This document shows positions 53,015 through 59,334 of a stretch of DNA of 64,000 nt, piece after piece; the first letter of the stretch is position 1, and each line of letters starts with the position of its first letter. The DNA is taken from NCBI RefSeq assembly GCF_003851125.1, contig NZ_BGOW01000014.1, positions 124,001 through 188,000 on the forward strand. Direction: 5' to 3'. A program made the translations under genes and the position numbers. The notes under the pieces are model-generated. The model was not told the origin of the DNA. It searched no databases and was given only the letters and a program-made list of their open reading frames with translations. The stretch is from Sulfuriferula multivorans. Its GTDB lineage: Bacteria > Pseudomonadota > Gammaproteobacteria > Burkholderiales > Sulfuriferulaceae.

Positions 53015-53464
53015 CTATCGCATCCATTTTCTGCGAATGAAATGGTCAATCGACAATTTCCCCGGCCCATGCAGCAGGAATATCAACAGGAACATCCCCC
53101 AATAAAGGTGCAGTTCGCGGCCTGCGTCGGAGAGGTCCGGATAAGAGGTAGCCGCCACTATGTTGAGTATGAATAATGCGGCGGTCCCGAACCGGGAGGC
53201 TAAACCAAGCGCCAGCATGACTGCGCCACCGAGTTCGACCATGGTTGCCGAGGTGGCCGCCATCTCGGGAGACAGAACCGGTACACTATAAAGATTGGTG
53301 AATAGATAGACGGTGCTGTCCCAATTGGCGATTTTCGTTAATCCGGATTTCCAGAAAATATTGGCGATATACAGGCGGATGACCAGATCAGCGACAGGGC
53401 TGATATCTTCCAGTCGGAGTATGGCGAATTTTGCCATGTGTAGTAGCTTGCGGATCACGCTCAC
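53015..53464 (-). CDS. DoxX family membrane protein of the bufferin operon
   Basis: This 149-residue protein has four helices and the DoxX pattern: DLVIRLYIANIFWKSGLTKI, VELGGAVMLALGL and a C-terminal HLYWGMFLLIFLLHGPGKLSIDH (core LIFLLHGPGKLS). DoxX genes often end bufferin operons (position D). It is 13 bases after the DUF2063 gene and probably in the same transcript. Its role may be redox or quinone-linked; this is not established. Confidence 0.85.
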   Translation of the reverse strand: MSVIRKLLHMAKFAILRLEDISPVADLVIRLYIANIFWKSGLTKIANWDSTVYLFTNLYSVPVLSPEMAATSATMVELGGAVMLALGLASRFGTAALFILNIVAATSYPDLSDAGRELHLYWGMFLLIFLLHGPGKLSIDHFIRRKWMR

Positions 53465-53477
53465 GAGTCTCTCCTTA

Positions 53478-54254
53478 TTATGCCGAAATACTGAAATCCA
53501 CCAGTATCGCTTCCTCTACCCACCGTCTCAGCGCCGCACCCGGGTCCAGGTCCGGGTCGATCTGGAGTGCGACATCGCAAGCTGTCGCAAAAGTGTGCCC
53601 GGTGGATAGTGCATGCAGTCCGCACCATTCGCTGCGGGGCAGCGCGTTAACGGCAACGCGATACATCTCCCGCTTCACCACGACAGTGGCGGCTCCGCTG
53701 GATAAATCCAGGGCCTGGTCGCCGGTGTGGTGATCTTGATTGACTTGCCATATCCGATCGACCGGAAACGCAGACTCGAACAGGGCGCAGGCAGGGTTGA
53801 GCCTGAATTGCAAGCGACCATAGTGTTCAGGCGCCACCTGCTTCAATCTGTCCAGTGCAAACGGTGCGTGGTCAGCCGCAAAGTAAGCCTTGTGGCACAG
53901 CCATTCCAGCCTGGCGACATCGGGCAGATAGGGCAGCTGTGCTGCGGGTGGAAAGGGCGCGAGAAACGCTCCAAATGCTTCGCCAAAAACATGCAGATCC
54001 CCGCTGACTGAAGGGTACCGGGAGATATATTCCTGCGCGGCATAGCGGAAAAATTCCGCGCCGACCAGTTTGACGATGACAGGATAGGCAGATTCGAGCG
54101 CGCTACTTAGGTTGCTGACGGCATTGTTGCGATAAATATCGATGCGCCACGCTCTCTCGGATGCTGTGCCAACCAAGTGCCGCGCCAACGCGGCTTTTTT
54201 TGCGCTGAAGACGGCCGTCATGAAGTCCTGCTGTAGGTCACGCAGAGCGCTCAC
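53478..54254 (-). CDS. bufC: DUF2063 (BufC/HvfC-type) partner protein, copy 1
   Basis: This 258-residue protein starts with the DUF2063 putative DNA-binding domain pattern LQQDFMTAVF and IDIYRNNAVSNLSSALESAYPVIVKLVG (core YRNNAVSNL). In bufferin systems such proteins assist the MNIO enzyme in recognising the precursor. I start at GTG 54254, which has an excellent ACAGGAGG site. The ATG at 54278 has none and would overlap the upstream gene further. The gene overlaps the DUF692 gene by 17 bases. Confidence 0.88.
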   Translation of the reverse strand: MSALRDLQQDFMTAVFSAKKAALARHLVGTASERAWRIDIYRNNAVSNLSSALESAYPVIVKLVGAEFFRYAAQEYISRYPSVSGDLHVFGEAFGAFLAPFPPAAQLPYLPDVARLEWLCHKAYFAADHAPFALDRLKQVAPEHYGRLQFRLNPACALFESAFPVDRIWQVNQDHHTGDQALDLSSGAATVVVKREMYRVAVNALPRSEWCGLHALSTGHTFATACDVALQIDPDLDPGAALRRWVEEAILVDFSISA

Positions 54255-55101
54255 GGCGGACCTCCTGTAACAGCGCATCGGCTTTCCGCGCTTCTTCCAG
54301 CAACACGGGTAAAGCGGGAATGTCTGTGTCCCACTCGATCAGCGTCGGAACATTTCCGACATGCGCCAATGCGTGGCCATATAGCGTCCACACGTCATCG
54401 CAGACCGCTGTTGCGTGCGTGTCGATCAGGCATTCGCCACTGTTGTCGAATCCGGCAAGATGGATTTCCTGCACCGCGCCTGCGGGTATGGCGTGCAGGT
54501 ATGCCAGCGGATCGAAGCGGTGATTCACTGCGCTGACATGAATATTGTTGACGTCCAGCAGGATGCCGCAACCGGAACGCGCCGAAATCTCGGCCAGAAA
54601 CTCCCATTCAGGAATTGTGGATTGCCGGTACTGAAGATAACTCGATACGTTTTCAATCAGGATCTGACGGCTCAGGAAATCCTGTACCTGCATGATGCGA
54701 CAGATGACATGCGTGAGCGCCTCCTCGGTATAAGGCAACGGAAGCAGATCGTTGAAGTAGCGTTCAGACACCGAGCCCCAGGACAAATGTTCCGATACCA
54801 AGCCCGGTTCGAAGCGCTCGATCAAAGATTTAAGTTTGCGCAAATGCGCGATATTCAATGAGTCGGTTGAGCCGAGCGACAAGCCGACGCCGTGCAGGCT
54901 CAAGGGGTAATCGGAGCGAATTCGTTCCAGGTAGTAAAGAGGCAATCCTCCTTCGGCGAAATAGTTTTCGCTATGCGCCTCGAACCAGCCGACGGCCGGC
55001 GGTGCAGACAGAATGTCCAGATAATGCCTGGCGCGCAGGCCAATTCCGGCATTGGACGGAATTGGCCTAGCTACCCGGCCGCGCAGTTTTTTTGCGATCA
55101 T
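54238..55101 (-). CDS. bufB: DUF692 family multinuclear iron oxidase (MNIO, BufB-type), copy 1
   Basis: This 287-residue TIM-barrel protein has GIGLRARHYLDIL, LHGVGLSLGSTDSLN, EHLSWG, LIENVSSYL, LLDVNNIHVSAVNH and EIHLAGFD. These carry the His, Glu, Asp and Asn ligands of the di/tri-iron centre in MNIO enzymes. In bufferin pathways the MNIO converts precursor cysteines to metal-binding heterocycles. The start is 6 bases after the precursor gene's stop, with no ribosome site of its own, so it is translationally coupled. Confidence 0.93.
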   Translation of the reverse strand: MIAKKLRGRVARPIPSNAGIGLRARHYLDILSAPPAVGWFEAHSENYFAEGGLPLYYLERIRSDYPLSLHGVGLSLGSTDSLNIAHLRKLKSLIERFEPGLVSEHLSWGSVSERYFNDLLPLPYTEEALTHVICRIMQVQDFLSRQILIENVSSYLQYRQSTIPEWEFLAEISARSGCGILLDVNNIHVSAVNHRFDPLAYLHAIPAGAVQEIHLAGFDNSGECLIDTHATAVCDDVWTLYGHALAHVGNVPTLIEWDTDIPALPVLLEEARKADALLQEVRRERSA

Positions 55102-55107
55102 CTGGTG

Positions 55108-55383
55108 TTATGCATGGCCTGGTATGCCGCCAACGATCTTGGCGCAAGTCCCTTTTGGCAACAGCACGAAGGAATCTTTCTGCCCATCTTTTGTTGCCGT
55201 CCCTGCACAGGAGTTCGCGCTACCTTTACCTCCGGCGCAATCGTTTTTACCAGCTTTGGCAATGCCATAGCACTGTTCCATTTTAGGCTTGTCTGCCGCA
55301 ATAGCCGGAGTAGTGAGCGCCAGGGAGCCAAAGGCCAGAAGGCTGGCGACCGCGGACTTAACCAGAATATCCTGCTTGTTCAT
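55108..55383 (-). CDS. bufA1: Bufferin-type precursor, DUF2282 family (BufA1-like)
   Basis: This 91-residue secreted peptide has a signal sequence (LLAFGSLALTTPAIA, cleaved about residue 29) and four Cys in the mature part: EQCYGIAKAGKNDCAGGKG, NSCAGTA and GTCAKIVGG. This is the DUF2282 pattern. Bufferins of this group are Cys-modified, copper-binding RiPPs. The RBS is AAGGAG before ATG 55383. A promoter-like motif lies at 55486-55511, about 105 bases upstream. Confidence 0.9.
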   Translation of the reverse strand: MNKQDILVKSAVASLLAFGSLALTTPAIAADKPKMEQCYGIAKAGKNDCAGGKGSANSCAGTATKDGQKDSFVLLPKGTCAKIVGGIPGHA

Positions 55384-55485
55384 GTGTGTAACTCCTTGCT
55401 GTGTGTATAAAAAGCGAGACGGAAACCACGTTTCCAATCGGAGTTGCGCCCGCTTCGAGCGACTGAATGATTCGCTTGCTGTTTA

Positions 55486-55511
55486 GTCTGGCGGGCCTGC
55501 TTTTTCTTACA
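55486..55511 (-). promoter_or_regulatory. Putative ECF-sigma promoter upstream of bufA1
   Basis: On the minus strand TGTAAGAA (55504-55511) is followed, 13 bases later, by CAGAC (55486-55490). The same left box with the same 13-base spacing precedes bufA2 and the ECF sigma gene. The right box differs in one base from CCGAC. Confidence 0.7.
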
Positions 55512-55600
55512 GAACAGGCTTGTTCGATGGCCGGTGCCGTCGCAGACGAAGTCATAGCTGTGCGACTTGTTTGTCTTCAGGCAATGATTGAGGAAATTGC

Positions 55601-56386
55601 TCAGGTCTTGAAATGCACGCTACGAATCATGCCGCTTTCCAGCCAGCCTTTGAGCAGTCCTGCCGCGTGTTGAGAGGCGTGAAGTTCGTCCACCCATTCG
55701 CACAGGCCGGTACAGATTTCCGCGAAGTTGACGCCGTGTAGCAGGCTGTCGATAGCCCAGGCTTCATCTTTATCCAGCGATCGGAAATAAACGCTCAGAT
55801 TCTGTCGCCAGATGATCCAGGACAGTGGTTCCTCTGTGTATGAGGGTTGCGGTGGATCGGCCGCGGCCGCCACGGCTTTCCAGATCAGCGGAGCATTGGA
55901 AAAAAAATCCAGCCGCTGCACCGACGGATGCGTCTGGAACGTCATGCGCCCCCAATCTGCGCCGGGTATGGCCGCCATATCCTGGATGGTCAGGCGGTCT
56001 TCGTCCGCTGCATCGAAAGTAAGCCCCTTGGCCCATTCAAAACTGGCCAGTTCAGCCAGTACGGGGATGTCCAGGTATGGTGGCGTCGCCTTGAGATAGG
56101 CATCCATGTTGGCGCCGAACCAGCGCAGATTGGGATAGGTCGAGGGAAAGGCAGCGATAAAAGCAAAGCATAATTGCTCGAAGTCTTCATCCCCCAAGGC
56201 GGCATGCAGCGCTGTGTAATCGGTTTGCAGCGCCTCCAGCAGGCGCAATCGATAAGCGGTGGAATAGATGCCCAGGCGCTCGGTGGCCGGCGCCAGTGGT
56301 GTGCCGGTGATCGCCTGTTGGATGGCATCATTCGCATGCAATATATGGGTCTGAAATGCCCGCTGCAGGGCGGCTAACTGGCTCAT
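55601..56386 (-). CDS. bufC: DUF2063 (BufC-type) partner protein, copy 2
   Basis: This 261-residue protein opens LAALQRAFQTHIL and LGIYSTAYRLRLLEALQTDY, the DUF2063 N-terminal pattern, and ends in a second helical domain. Overall similarity to copy 1 is low by eye, suggesting old divergence rather than recent duplication. It overlaps the DUF692 copy 2 by 4 bases. As in copy 1 it probably binds the precursor or the enzyme. Confidence 0.86.
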   Translation of the reverse strand: MSQLAALQRAFQTHILHANDAIQQAITGTPLAPATERLGIYSTAYRLRLLEALQTDYTALHAALGDEDFEQLCFAFIAAFPSTYPNLRWFGANMDAYLKATPPYLDIPVLAELASFEWAKGLTFDAADEDRLTIQDMAAIPGADWGRMTFQTHPSVQRLDFFSNAPLIWKAVAAAADPPQPSYTEEPLSWIIWRQNLSVYFRSLDKDEAWAIDSLLHGVNFAEICTGLCEWVDELHASQHAAGLLKGWLESGMIRSVHFKT

Positions 56387-57240
56387 GCGTCGGCTATCTG
56401 TGTGAGCGCCTGCTTGGCGATATGGCGAGCCCGATCCAGTTCGGCCAGCAACTCCTCCAGTGGCGGAATATTATCGTCGCGCTCGATCATGGTGGAAACC
56501 GCGCCGAAGCGTCGCACCGCATGTTCGTAGAGTTCCCAAACCCGGTCGATGACCGGCTCATCGTGGGTATCGATAATGCAACCGCCCTGGTTGCGATGGC
56601 CGGCGAGGTGAAATTGCTGTACCCGGTTCACTGGGATGGCGTCAATGTATTCAACCGGGTCGAAACCATGATTGAAACTGCTGACGTAGATGTTGTTTAT
56701 GTCGAGCAGAAGCAGGCTGTCCGCCCGTTGTGCAACTTCGCGCAGAAAATCCCACTCGCTCATCTCGCTGTGTTTATACGTGACATAGCTCGACACGTTT
56801 TCCAGCAGCAAGCGGCACCCGAGGATGTCCTGCACTGCGCTCACCCGGTCCACGACATGCTGCAGGGCTTCCTCGGTATAGGGAAGCGGCATCAGGTCGT
56901 GCAGATTGGTACTGTCCACCCCGGTCCAGCACAGGTGATCCGATATCCAGCGCGGCTCGATTTGATCGGTCAGTGTTTTCAACTGCTTCAGGTAATCCCG
57001 ATTCAGTGGATCGCTGCTGCCGATCGACAGTGAAACCCCGTGCATCACAATCGGATAATTTTCGCGAATGCGGTCGAGGTAATGACGCGGCTTGCCCCCC
57101 GGCACCATGTAGTTTTCCGAAAGCACTTCGAACCAGTCGACGGCTGGCCGCGACTCGAGAATTGCTTCGTAGTGGGGTATCCGCAAACCCAGACCAAATC
57201 CCAGGGGGGGATGGAGTAACTGCTCAGCATGATGTGGCAT
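56383..57240 (-). CDS. bufB: DUF692 family multinuclear iron oxidase (MNIO, BufB-type), copy 2
   Basis: This 285-residue protein has GLGLRIPHYEAIL, MHGVSLSIGSSDPLN, DHLCWTG, LLENVSSYV, LLDINNIYVSSFNH and QFHLAGH, matching the MNIO ligand set. Its precursor gene lies 94 bases upstream, and a strong hairpin stands between them. I start at ATG 57240 (MPHHAEQL). The frame reaches 57273, but that part runs into the hairpin and has no homology. Confidence 0.93.
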   Translation of the reverse strand: MPHHAEQLLHPPLGFGLGLRIPHYEAILESRPAVDWFEVLSENYMVPGGKPRHYLDRIRENYPIVMHGVSLSIGSSDPLNRDYLKQLKTLTDQIEPRWISDHLCWTGVDSTNLHDLMPLPYTEEALQHVVDRVSAVQDILGCRLLLENVSSYVTYKHSEMSEWDFLREVAQRADSLLLLDINNIYVSSFNHGFDPVEYIDAIPVNRVQQFHLAGHRNQGGCIIDTHDEPVIDRVWELYEHAVRRFGAVSTMIERDDNIPPLEELLAELDRARHIAKQALTQIADA

Positions 57241-57269
57241 TTGAAGTACGCCTTGCCAAATAAGTGGAA

Positions 57270-57302
57270 ACATTCGAAGCCGGCGAGCCGGTCTTCGAAT
57301 GT
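57270..57302 (-). terminator. Intercistronic hairpin between bufA2 and its MNIO gene
   Basis: ACATTCGAAG-CCGG (57270-57283) pairs with CCGG-T-CTTCGAATGT (57288-57302) with one bulged base and a 4-base loop. It is a near-perfect 14-bp stem. Minus-strand sequence beyond it is moderately T-rich, TTTCCACTTATTTGG. It could act as a partial terminator or a 3' stabiliser that keeps the precursor mRNA in excess over enzyme mRNA. Confidence 0.65.
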
Positions 57303-57334
57303 ACTGCGGCGCAGGATTGTTGTTGCAAATCCGT

Positions 57335-57592
57335 TTACTTCATCATCTGTGCTTTGGCCTTGTCGCATTCAGATTGACTCATGGTGAGAAACCCGTGACC
57401 CTTGCAAGCGTTCATCCCTTTACAAGCGTTGTTGGCCGTCTTGCAATCGGATTTTCCCTTACAGGAATTCACCCCCTCGCAGTGGATCGCGGCTTCGGCG
57501 GCTACCGCCGTGGTGGCCACACCTACAGTCATGAACATGCTCGCCGCGGCAGCAGCAAGGGCTATTCCAGTCATTTTTTTTACAGCGCTCAT
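57335..57592 (-). CDS. bufA2: Bufferin-type Cys-rich precursor, BufA2-like
   Basis: This 85-residue secreted peptide has a long Ala/Met-rich signal sequence (cleaved about AVA-AEA, residue 32). Its mature part has six Cys in near-periodic spacing: HCEGVNSCKGKSDCKTANNACKG and NACKGHG (key unit C-K-G and N-x-C-K-G), plus ECDK near the end. This Cys-Lys-Gly-rich type differs from the DUF2282 type next door. Its partner enzyme follows after a hairpin. The RBS is GAGGAGGC, and a promoter-like motif lies at 57713-57738. Confidence 0.88.
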   Translation of the reverse strand: MSAVKKMTGIALAAAAASMFMTVGVATTAVAAEAAIHCEGVNSCKGKSDCKTANNACKGMNACKGHGFLTMSQSECDKAKAQMMK

Positions 57593-57712
57593 CGTAAAGC
57601 CTCCTCTTGATTAAAAAACCCGATTTACCGTGCGGAATTTGCTACGGGTGATTCAAAGTGCGGATTCGGGTATCCGCAATTTACGCCCACGAAAATCATG
57701 GGTTACTGCTTT

Positions 57713-57738
57713 GTCGGGATCAGCCGCCAATTCTTACA
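57713..57738 (-). promoter_or_regulatory. Putative ECF-sigma promoter upstream of bufA2
   Basis: On the minus strand TGTAAGAA (57731-57738), 13 bases, then CCGAC (57713-57717). Both boxes and the spacing equal those before the ECF sigma gene at 59309-59334. It lies about 120 bases upstream of the bufA2 start. Confidence 0.75.
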
Positions 57739-57813
57739 CATCGAATTGTAACGATGAGTGCGCTTTGTACAGAGGGCATCATTTGCGACTGTTTCTTATC
57801 AGGGCCCGTATTC

Positions 57814-58260
57814 TTATTCGGTCACGGCTTTGGCGATCGAGGCCTGCAATCCATCCAGTTTCTTCGCCAATTCGTCCTGGCCCTTGATGTCATGCCGGGC
57901 GACAACCCAGGTCAGAGAGTTGTAGCTCATGAACACGTTTCCTGCCGCGTCCTCCCAGACCAGGGCCTTGAGCGGGAAATCAATCGCTGCTTCCGGTGCT
58001 GCCACCATGAAAGGCGTGCCGCCCTTGGGGTTGCCGAAAATCGTTACCGTAGCGGGCTGCATTTTCAACCCTGCTTTTCGTGCGCCTTCCGCGTGGTCGA
58101 TTGTGGCGAACACGGTCAAGCCTTTTTCTTTCAGTACCGCTTCCAGCCGGGCCTGCGTATCCTGAAATCCGTGTTTGCTTGCCAGAGTTTTCATGCCTTC
58201 ATCCGCGCTTGCCGTGAACGAGACCATCAACATGCTCAATGCGATCCATACATATTTCAT
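57814..58260 (-). CDS. Secreted DUF302 domain protein
   Basis: This 148-residue precursor has a signal peptide (WIALSMLMVSFTASA, cleaved about residue 20) and a DUF302 domain with ATIDHAEGARKAGLKMQPATV and FGNPKGGTPFM. DUF302 proteins are small and poorly understood, often near redox or metal genes. I start at ATG 58260 because its GGAG site is 7 bases away; the ATG at 58266 would be too close to it. It lies between the anti-sigma gene and bufA2. Confidence 0.85.
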   Translation of the reverse strand: MKYVWIALSMLMVSFTASADEGMKTLASKHGFQDTQARLEAVLKEKGLTVFATIDHAEGARKAGLKMQPATVTIFGNPKGGTPFMVAAPEAAIDFPLKALVWEDAAGNVFMSYNSLTWVVARHDIKGQDELAKKLDGLQASIAKAVTE

Positions 58261-58341
58261 TTTCATTCTCCTGGTGATGGGGTTTCGAAATGCTTGCCAT
58301 AACTGAAATCATCGAATGCAACCTCCGGGGCGGAAGGGCTA

Positions 58342-58359
58342 GTATCTGCTTGCAGATAC
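58342..58359. repeat. 18-base palindrome upstream of the DUF302 gene
   Basis: GTATCTGC-TT-GCAGATAC is a perfect inverted repeat 82 bases before the DUF302 start, in the 203-base gap after the anti-sigma gene. It could be a dimeric repressor site. I do not recognise the sequence as a known operator. Confidence 0.5.
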
Positions 58360-58463
58360 CATACAGACTATAGGTGACTAACATTTGAAGAGCTTTGTTT
58401 GTTGCCACGGCATTGTACCGTTGCGCCCGCAGCGCATCCGTGCAGACCTGCAACCGGCATCTT

Positions 58464-58682
58464 TCATCCCTTGTCGCGAGATTCAGGCTCGTGTTTATTT
58501 TTTTCATTGGTGCCTTTCGCAAACGCTCTCATCGTCAATCGCAGGGAGGCCATGTTTTTCTCATAGTTGCTGCAACCCGAGCACATCATTACATGCGTTC
58601 GCAGGGAGATTTTTTCGCGCAGCGTGAGTGGGCGCTCCTGTGATTCCGAAACAAGACGGATGATTTCCTGACAATTCAACAT
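58464..58682 (-). CDS. Short zinc-type (zf-HC2) anti-sigma factor
   Basis: This 72-residue protein has C4, H30, C34 and C37 (the last three in THVMMCSGC), the H-x3-C-x2-C zinc anti-sigma motif. There is no membrane helix, so it is cytoplasmic. It starts 7 bases inside the end of the ECF sigma gene, the usual sigma/anti-sigma coupling. Zinc anti-sigmas often release sigma on oxidation or metal exchange, which fits a copper-linked regulon. Confidence 0.85.
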   Translation of the reverse strand: MLNCQEIIRLVSESQERPLTLREKISLRTHVMMCSGCSNYEKNMASLRLTMRAFAKGTNEKNKHEPESRDKG

Positions 58683-59299
58683 AAGCGTTCCCCGTTTGAA
58701 TACCATTTGTTTCCAAGGCATACCTGTAATCGCAAACGGGCCCGGTGCAGCAACACAAACAGATTGCTGGGCGTGATACCCGTTGCCGCGCAGATGTCAT
58801 CGGTTTCCAACTCGATAAATTCGCGCATCATGAAGACGCGCGCCTGTTTTGCTGGCAGATTTTCAAGGCAAGCTTCAAATACATGCCAGAATTGTTGTTG
58901 CCGGAAGGAAGCCTCCGGGTTACCCCAAAGGGTGGGTCGTCCATCCGCCTGCCAATGTCTTCTCTGGTCAAACAGAAGGTCTGCGAAATCCTCGTTCTCC
59001 TCATCGTCCTGCGGCAAACTGCTGGCATTGACCAGGCGCTGCTTATGTCGCAATACATCGGCGATCTTGTTTTTGAGAATGGCAAATATCCAGGTTTTCA
59101 GCGCCGAGCGCCCCGCGAAGTGCTCTGCGCTGGCCAGCGCGCCGGCAAGCGCTTCCTGCACGGCATCTTCGGCAAGATGGACGTCACTGAGTTGCAGGCT
59201 GGCAAATCTGATCATCTGGCGCCGCAAATCCTCAATGAAAACGCCATCATTCAGTGTCGTTTCCGCTAACAAAGTGTCGCGCTTCTTCTTGGCATCCAT
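58676..59299 (-). CDS. ECF-type RNA polymerase sigma factor
   Basis: This 207-residue sigma-70 family protein has region 2 (LRRQMIRFASLQLSDVHLAEDAVQEA, then ALKTWIFAILKNKIADVLR) and region 4 (LPAKQARVFMMREFIELETDDICAATGITPSNLFVLLHRARLRLQ; core GITPSNLFVLLHRA). It is followed by its zinc anti-sigma. A matching promoter motif stands at its own 5' end, suggesting autoregulation. ATG 59299 has no ribosome site and lies only about 10 bases after the -10-like box. Translation may be leaderless or begin at the internal TTG 59272, which follows AAGAAGAAG. Confidence 0.9.
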   Translation of the reverse strand: MDAKKKRDTLLAETTLNDGVFIEDLRRQMIRFASLQLSDVHLAEDAVQEALAGALASAEHFAGRSALKTWIFAILKNKIADVLRHKQRLVNASSLPQDDEENEDFADLLFDQRRHWQADGRPTLWGNPEASFRQQQFWHVFEACLENLPAKQARVFMMREFIELETDDICAATGITPSNLFVLLHRARLRLQVCLGNKWYSNGERLC

Positions 59300-59308
59300 C
59301 AGTACTGA

Positions 59309-59334
59309 GTCGGAAAGAGCGGAAGTTTCTTACA
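59309..59334 (-). promoter_or_regulatory. Putative autoregulatory ECF promoter
   Basis: On the minus strand TGTAAGAA (59327-59334), 13 bases, CCGAC (59309-59313). The motif is shared with the bufA1 and bufA2 upstream regions. It is within 36 bases of the annotated sigma start. Confidence 0.75.

Follow-up and report, generated by a model that had tools for sequence, protein, structure and literature searches.

A shared TGTAAG/CGAC motif as the predicted promoter of an ECF sigma factor gene, two bufferin operons and further metal and thiol stress genes in Sulfuriferula multivorans

Bufferins and oxazolin-type peptides form a recently recognised copper-binding class, and their regulation is known in few bacteria. 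In Sulfuriferula multivorans, a stretch of 64,000 nt (contig NZ_BGOW01000014.1, positions 124,001 to 188,000; hereafter the window) carries on its minus strand, between 53 and 59.3 kb, genes for an extracytoplasmic function (ECF) sigma factor, an anti-sigma factor and a DUF302 protein, then bufA2-bufB-bufC and then bufA1-bufB-bufC-doxX. An earlier note on this DNA had described one promoter-like motif before the sigma gene and before both precursor genes, which raises the question whether this sigma factor transcribes both bufferin operons and itself, and which other genes it may control. We propose that the ECF sigma factor, with its zinc-type anti-sigma factor, would run one periplasmic soft-metal/thiol regulon over Buf1, Buf2 and HvfA-type metallophores, the three copies of the motif being its promoters; on the sequence evidence presented below, we give this reading a probability of roughly 0.88. 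The genes behind the motif probably belong to a single response to metal and thiol stress.

Sites in the window and in the genome of S. multivorans

A pattern search of the window with TGTAAGAA-N13-CMGAC returned three matches on the minus strand, at 59309-59334, 57713-57738 and 55486-55511, each 5' of its own gene and on the strand of that gene. The positions, the orientation, the identical spacing and the identity of the left box, which reads TGTAAGAA in every copy, are thus as the earlier note had given them. When the spacer was varied (TGTAAGAA-N11..15-CMGAC), three matches were again found in the window, compared to none in each of 100 shuffles, and the wider pattern TGTAAGAA-N10..16-CNGAC occurs three times in the 3.62 Mb of the own genome, all three being the window copies (the pattern read backward occurs once). 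For the right box, CGAC (AGAC in the bufA1 copy) with NNA after it is the better description, so that the motif runs three bases longer. In this notation the predicted promoter of the sigma gene (59306..59334) consists of TGTAAG (59334-59329), 16 nt and CGACTCA (59312-59306), and its predicted start coincides with the first base (A) of the ATG at 59299; that of the bufA2 operon (57710..57738) has TGTAAG, 16 nt and CGACAAA, with a predicted start at 57703 (A), and that of the bufA1 operon (55483..55511) has TGTAAG, 16 nt and AGACTAA, with a predicted start at 55476 (A).

The regulon appears to be larger than the earlier note had proposed. The own genome (G000) was scanned by exact pattern searches, by which weaker sites are missed, and TGTAAGR-N15..16-MGACNNA gave six matches (three for the reversed-pattern control), all of them upstream of genes, directed towards them and with 16 nt between TGTAAG and MGAC. 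Three of the six targets are those of the window (the sigma gene, bufA2 and bufA1); the others, which lie outside it, are an HvfA-type MNIO operon, msrPQ and dsbG-gor, and their three sites have G at position 7 and therefore escape the TGTAAGAA wording. In the hvfA operon the precursor is of the HvfA type, and HvfB and HvfC exceed their curated cut-offs; so do msrP, msrQ, the DsbG-like gene and the glutathione reductase gene that follows it. An A stands at the predicted start in four of the six sites.

The same search was applied to G001, a genome of the same genus, which holds the closest sigma ortholog (77% identical). Five matches were found there, and none for the reversed pattern; four of them, with 16 nt between the boxes, precede hvfA, bufA1, msrPQ and a dsbG-like gene, the last at a distance of about 350 nt. 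The hvfA, msrPQ and dsbG-like sites are thus kept in G001, and another precedes its own bufA1. The fifth match lies just 5' of the aligned segment of a sigma paralog. G001 also contains, at G001:C1:2745089-2745481, a second sigma match, 51% identical and with an internal TGA, about 5 kb from its bufA1 operon. Within the genus, two MNIO loci from genomes without the sigma factor (L160, one of the two of G011, and L186 of G004) have no site.

Conservation of the motif and the weighing of alternatives

Among 300 genomes of the same order, the sigma factor was matched (E<=1e-30) in 118 and the bufferin maturase model (E<=1e-40) in 143. We defined as close-sigma genomes the 22 with a sigma match >=187 bits together with G001 (23 in total), plus G000; an MNIO gene is present in 20 of the 23. 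From these, 31 MNIO loci were analysed (28 from the close-sigma genomes and the three own ones, after L155, a 31-bit MNIO fragment, had been dropped). Upstream of them GTAAG-Nn-CGWC occurs 15 times with 16 nt and five times with 17 nt between the boxes, compared to seven times over 23 other spacings, while the opposite-strand control gave two and zero, respectively; in all, 18/31 loci carry such a site, or 22/31 when weaker forms are counted.

The site is rarer where the sigma factor is not found. TGTAAG sites neither in nor beside sigma genes were counted in 16/31 loci with a close sigma, 8/15 with a distant sigma and 3/32 with no sigma found (Fisher p=2.7e-4, close versus none; a guide only, the loci being treated as independent though related). 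With GTAAG, and sigma-gene strings not excluded, the counts were 18/31, 10/15 and 4/32. The 15 distant-sigma loci, whose genomes have a sigma match at E<=1e-30 but under 187 bits, were taken from 30 further MNIO loci, three of which (L156, L159 and L183) repeat loci of the first set; the 32 no-sigma loci comprise the remaining 12 of these 30 and 20 picked by hand, and 'no sigma' means no match at E<=1e-30 in genomes some of which are drafts (G276 is 70% complete). Strings of the type TGTAAGGA...CGAC that lie 420-590 nt into several sigma genes, or directly behind them, were not counted, since they mostly encode region 4 residues; the strict per-locus count also leaves out L140, where the site adjoins a divergent sigma gene and may be real.

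The preference for spacing is seen around the sigma genes as well. The best 80 of 491 confirmed sigma relatives, among which are members of Rhodoferax, Aromatoleum, Ralstonia sp., Candidatus Nitrotoga, Gallionella, Undibacterium and Microbulbifer, were taken as named loci, and 79 (1.366 Mb) were kept after L232, a duplicate of L231, had been dropped. On both strands of these, TGTAAG-Nn-CGAC occurs 33 times at N16 and 65 times at N17, whereas the remaining 23 spacings between 6 and 30 together account for 18, and the reversed left box gave none at N16 or N17. A site lies <=450 nt upstream of 16/20 precursor genes, which are 16/18 of those adjoining an MNIO gene; the precursor genes without one are those of L231, L248 and two of L269, this last pair having no MNIO neighbour. 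The consensus is TGTAAGAAA followed by CGACTA(A), and the base found most often at position 14, counting from CGAC, is A; at the predicted start, A leads in both spacing classes (0.42 and 0.48). Moreover, in G135, a genome of another family, motif sites precede one Buf2 and two Buf1 operons, and the own genome is therefore not a single case.

A different explanation would be that the motif is the operator of a metal- or redox-responsive transcription factor acting on ordinary sigma-70 promoters. Regulators of this kind exist for copper, and the own-genome targets are indeed stress genes, as such an operator would have it. Nevertheless, the motif has two asymmetric boxes with a choice between 16 and 17 nt of spacing, all six own-genome sites are directed towards their genes, A is preferred at the expected start, and a simple consensus scan of the minus strand found no sigma-70-like site just 5' of the three genes of the window, so that we regard an operator as very improbable.

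Alternatively, the sites could be promoters of another ECF sigma factor of the genome, the neighbouring sigma gene being a passenger. G000 does hold six further, more distant sigma matches, and the motif is met also with distant members of the family (8/15) and in 3/32 MNIO loci whose genomes have no sigma match. However, the sites track the presence of this sigma family and cluster around its genes in the 79 named loci, they are absent from L160 and L186 of the same genus, whose genomes lack the sigma factor, and a published Neisseria system has an equal left core and geometry. We consider this explanation improbable.

Several observations weigh against control of these sites by the neighbouring sigma factor. 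As to the sites themselves, that of bufA1 has AGAC instead of CGAC, and where the start is predicted for hvfA and msrPQ the base is G instead of A. The sigma-gene copy lies so near the ATG that the start given by the Neisseria rule is its first base, which would imply a leaderless message or a translation start further downstream; 8/10 sigma relatives align only from residue 12 or later, these being alignment limits and not gene starts. The six further sigma matches in G000 must be set here as well. As to conservation, the strict motif is missing in about half of the MNIO loci of sigma-bearing genomes: the GTAAG site is absent from 13/31 close-sigma loci, nine of which lack even a weaker form. 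Conversely, a site is present in the 3/32 no-sigma loci mentioned above (4/32 with GTAAG alone). In G040 a distant sigma gene directly adjoins a bufA2 cluster, with no such site just 5' of the sigma gene, and the motif string can arise within sigma genes at region 4 codons. In G001, finally, there is no site before the sigma ortholog, which sits in an operon after an nrtS-like gene (named by eye).

The raw number of loose matches points in the same direction. TGTAAG-N15..16-CGAC is not enriched in the own genome (11 compared to 23 reversed), and the corresponding counts in G001 are six and 13. Six of the 11 have N16, namely five promoters and one antisense match in msrP (G000:C26:47659-47684), which was rejected as a promoter as it fails the NNA extension; the five with N15 all lie within long open frames, these frames being mechanical (the hvfA site, too, overlaps two short ones). 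A still looser search (TGTAAG-N12..18-CNGAC) was set aside, the reversed control with strands summed being commoner in 12/12 genomes and the signal swamped by chance. Control by the neighbouring sigma factor is therefore argued here from spacing, placement and conservation, not from raw number.

These counts also bear on a further alternative, a chance likeness of three short strings. It could appeal to the left box, which alone is only mildly enriched in the window (three observed, 0.62 expected, at least three being reached in 2/100 shuffles), to the origin of the string in sigma genes by codon usage, and to the loose pattern being no commoner than its reverse in the own genome. On the other hand, not even one full match arose in any of the 100 shuffles, all six full-pattern matches of the own genome stand before related genes, and the conservation is specific for the spacing; chance is contradicted by the six-match pattern in the own genome and by the spacing found in the 79 loci, and we find it hardly credible.

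Taken together, the tie proposed by the earlier note between the ECF sigma factor and both bufferin operons appears to hold, as judged from the spacing preference, the conservation in many genera, the lower frequency without the sigma factor and the likeness to the Neisseria sigmaE promoter. The tie of the sigma factor to its own gene is less secure. Since the sigma operon of G001 has no site, self-regulation is not conserved in the nearest relative, and it is the weakest part of the reading; in 19/79 named loci, the sigma gene has a site before it, either immediately or ahead of an intervening oxidoreductase gene.

Genes of the locus and genes behind the motif in relatives

The sites, their spacing, rarity and conservation, and the protein families of the genes can be read off directly. 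The sigma gene (58676..59299, minus strand as are all genes of this stretch) exceeds the cut-offs of NCBIfam PRK12544 (295.1, cut-off 287) and TIGR02943 (244.7, cut-off 162.2). The anti-sigma gene (58464..58682) passes both the zf-HC2 and the antisigmaE family and encodes 72 residues from MLNC; with this start, which overlaps the end of the sigma gene, the protein has the motif C4-X25-H30-X3-C34-X2-C37. The bufA2 operon comprises the precursor gene (57335..57592; NF050166 above cut-off), bufB for the MNIO maturase (56383..57273; NF050167 above cut-off) and bufC (55601..56386; DUF2063). It is followed by bufA1 (55108..55383; PF10048, DUF2282), a second bufB for an MNIO maturase (54238..55101; NF050167 above cut-off), a second bufC (53478..54278; DUF2063) and, as the final gene of this cluster, a gene for a DoxX-family protein (53015..53464). 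Both clusters thus join a BufA1 (DUF2282) or BufA2 precursor to MNIO and DUF2063 genes, the composition by which bufferin gene clusters are recognised.

Two neighbouring genes have no site of their own. The DUF302 gene (57814..58266) lies 3' of the anti-sigma gene and 5' of the bufA2 promoter; among the 80 named sigma loci (best 80 of 491), a DUF302 match was found in just L211, 5 kb from its sigma gene. A glutaredoxin gene (PF00462; 59500-59757 of the window, minus strand) lies just 5' of the sigma gene on the same strand.

From these families a mechanism may be proposed. We infer that the anti-sigma factor (58464-58682, of the MseR kind) would hold the sigma factor, and that stress, from a metal or an oxidant, would act on its Cys4 or its zinc site; the ECF sigma factor (58676-59299) would then be released, read the sites and transcribe its own operon, bufA2-B-C and bufA1-B-C-doxX and, outside the window, hvfA-B-C, msrPQ and dsbG-gor, all within predicted operon limits. 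The modified Cys-rich peptides may bind copper-like ions, whereas DsbG and Gor would deal with disulfides and glutathione, and MsrPQ would repair oxidised methionine.

The genes behind the motif in relatives were surveyed by sorting the 87 TGTAAGR sites of the named loci (two of them inside annotated genes) by the longest frame starting downstream; family names were checked on one member each, and DoxX and bufferin genes were assigned by similarity to those of the window. At 17/87 sites there follows a TIGR03169-like oxidoreductase gene, in each case with a sigma gene after it on the same strand, 1.2-2.5 kb from the site, and 16/87 sites precede bufferin or HvfA operons. Genes for ArsS-like radical SAM proteins (nine sites), methylthioadenosine phosphorylase-like proteins (eight) and DoxX (five) come next, then a family of 151-157 residues of no known type (four) and the sigma gene itself (two, L273 and L285); rarer targets are MsrAB, glutaredoxin, an ArsM-like methyltransferase (two loci, under the curated cut-off) and EgtB (two loci). 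The shared theme of these targets is soft metals, selenium or arsenic, and thiols, among which the inducer may also be sought.

We therefore favour, though only by a little, the broader proposal that TGTAAGRW-N14/15-CGACTAA is the signature of a conserved soft-metal/thiol regulon of beta- and gammaproteobacteria, run by TIGR02943 sigma factors, which would join Buf1, Buf2 and HvfA-type operons, that is all three Sec-exported MNIO families, with the repair of disulfides and methionine in the periplasm and, among relatives, with genes for ArsS-type radical SAM, ArsM-like, TIGR03169 oxidoreductase, EgtB and glutaredoxin proteins. If so, uncharacterised Cys-rich proteins behind the same promoter would be new metallophores. 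A promoter signature that predicts co-regulation over many genera leads to a direct test of inducers, and finds members by promoter and not by protein family.

Some observations on single loci may be added. The family of 151-157 residues is found behind a conserved site at L227:8155-8607, with relatives in L209, L223 and L268; the L227 member has no Pfam or NCBIfam match, and in 3/4 loci the gene is divergent from the methylthioadenosine phosphorylase-like gene. At L224:8067-8396 (minus strand), a site lies upstream of a gene for a Cys-rich protein of 110 residues with a signal-peptide-like start (by eye), a candidate metal-binding peptide for which no NCBIfam match was found at E<=1e-8. G028, which carries the sigma factor and has no MNIO match, encodes at L054:2105-2959 a pair of Cys-rich proteins in which NPCAAK units are repeated, one protein being cytochrome-like (by eye); a TGTAAGGTT...CGAC site lies 5' of this pair and another 5' of the preceding thioredoxin/DsbD-like genes (by eye). 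In L039, L041, L045 and L048, the distant sigma relatives apparently have an upstream element of another kind in common (by eye, TTTCAAG ... CTAGATTC-like), perhaps a further promoter class.

Comparison with known systems

In Caulobacter, Neisseria and Haemophilus, MNIO peptide operons are already known to be controlled by ECF sigma factors (PMC3511200, PMC2893595, PMC7907618). The closest parallel is sigmaE (NMB2144) of Neisseria meningitidis with MseR, a small zinc-binding anti-sigma factor (ZAS), a system which is autoregulated and controls a DoxX-containing operon and a methionine sulfoxide reductase (PMC2893595, PMC3240639); the other genes of the DoxX operon have been described as hvf homologues (PMC7907618). 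The Neisseria promoter has a -35 box GTMAGBWTT, a spacer of 12-13, a -10 box CGTCTAAH and a start at an A six bases on (PMC2893595). Written in the same way, the window sites have GTAAGAAAC, GTAAGAATT and GTAAGAAAA on the left and, after a spacer of 12 nt, CGACTCA, CGACAAA and AGACTAA on the right. The GTMAG core, the geometry and the preferred start at A are alike, whereas the base after the core is A here and B there, and the -10 core has A here and T there. A GTMAG core 16-17 nt from a -10 CGNC is thus found in the sigma and bufA2 sites, bufA1 having AGAC, and the full CGTCTAAH in none of the three. Furthermore, one such operon and msrAB are described for Neisseria, compared to three precursor families, msrPQ and dsbG-gor here.

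For the proteins, the comparison was made with the Neisseria-like f44 genomes, whose likeness to Neisseria is one of gene order. Four f44 loci have the order hvfB-hvfC-sigma, with DoxX detected in two and an anti-sigma factor in three, and GTMAG...CGTC boxes lie upstream, one of which starts CGTAAG; three f44 sigma factors exceed the TIGR02943 cut-off. The ZAS cysteines and Cys4 of MseR are reported to be essential (PMC2893595), and the anti-sigma factor of the window, if it starts at MLNC, shows the same H-X3-C-X2-C with Cys4. On that start, C4, H30, C34 and C37 are invariant in six sequences (the own, three from f44 and two others).

RpoE2/HrsE of Haemophilus influenzae resembles the present system in its small cytoplasmic anti-sigma factor, in the DoxX/DUF2063 operon under RpoE2 and in its periplasmic methionine-sulfoxide reductases, whereas in the accessible part of PMC7907618 no promoter motif and no Buf1/Buf2 operon were found. 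In Caulobacter crescentus, sigmaF/NrsF is alike in that one ECF sigma factor governs two DUF2282 (Buf1) operons and YedY/MsrP, and the sigF promoter carries the motif of its regulon, as the sigma gene does here (PMC3511200). It differs in the motif, GTAACC-N16-CGAA, and in the anti-sigma factor, a six-helix membrane protein (DUF1109), and the regulon table lists no Buf2 (PMC3511200); here the adjacent gene is of the zf-HC2 type, not NrsF (DUF1109), and the boxes are TGTAAG and MGAC. Cupriavidus metallidurans also has an ECF sigma gene, rpoQ, beside an operon, gigPABT, induced by copper and gold, with a predicted membrane-bound anti-sigma factor; evidence that initiation at gig depends on RpoQ was not obtained in that study (PMC10304878).

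No printed description of the TGTAAG/CGAC motif was found among the entries listed from the freely available literature, and those listed for ArsS-type radical SAM proteins together with ECF sigma factors held nothing on this sigma family. As far as this literature shows, the CGAC variant and its breadth are new, as is one sigma factor over Buf1, Buf2 and HvfA-type operons at once, here in the own genome. In a survey of 2025, sigma and NrsF genes were found with Buf1 clusters, but not with those of the Buf2 type (PMC12452194), and compared to that survey the sigma gene beside a Buf2 cluster is new; sigma control would now be placed on Buf2 clusters too.

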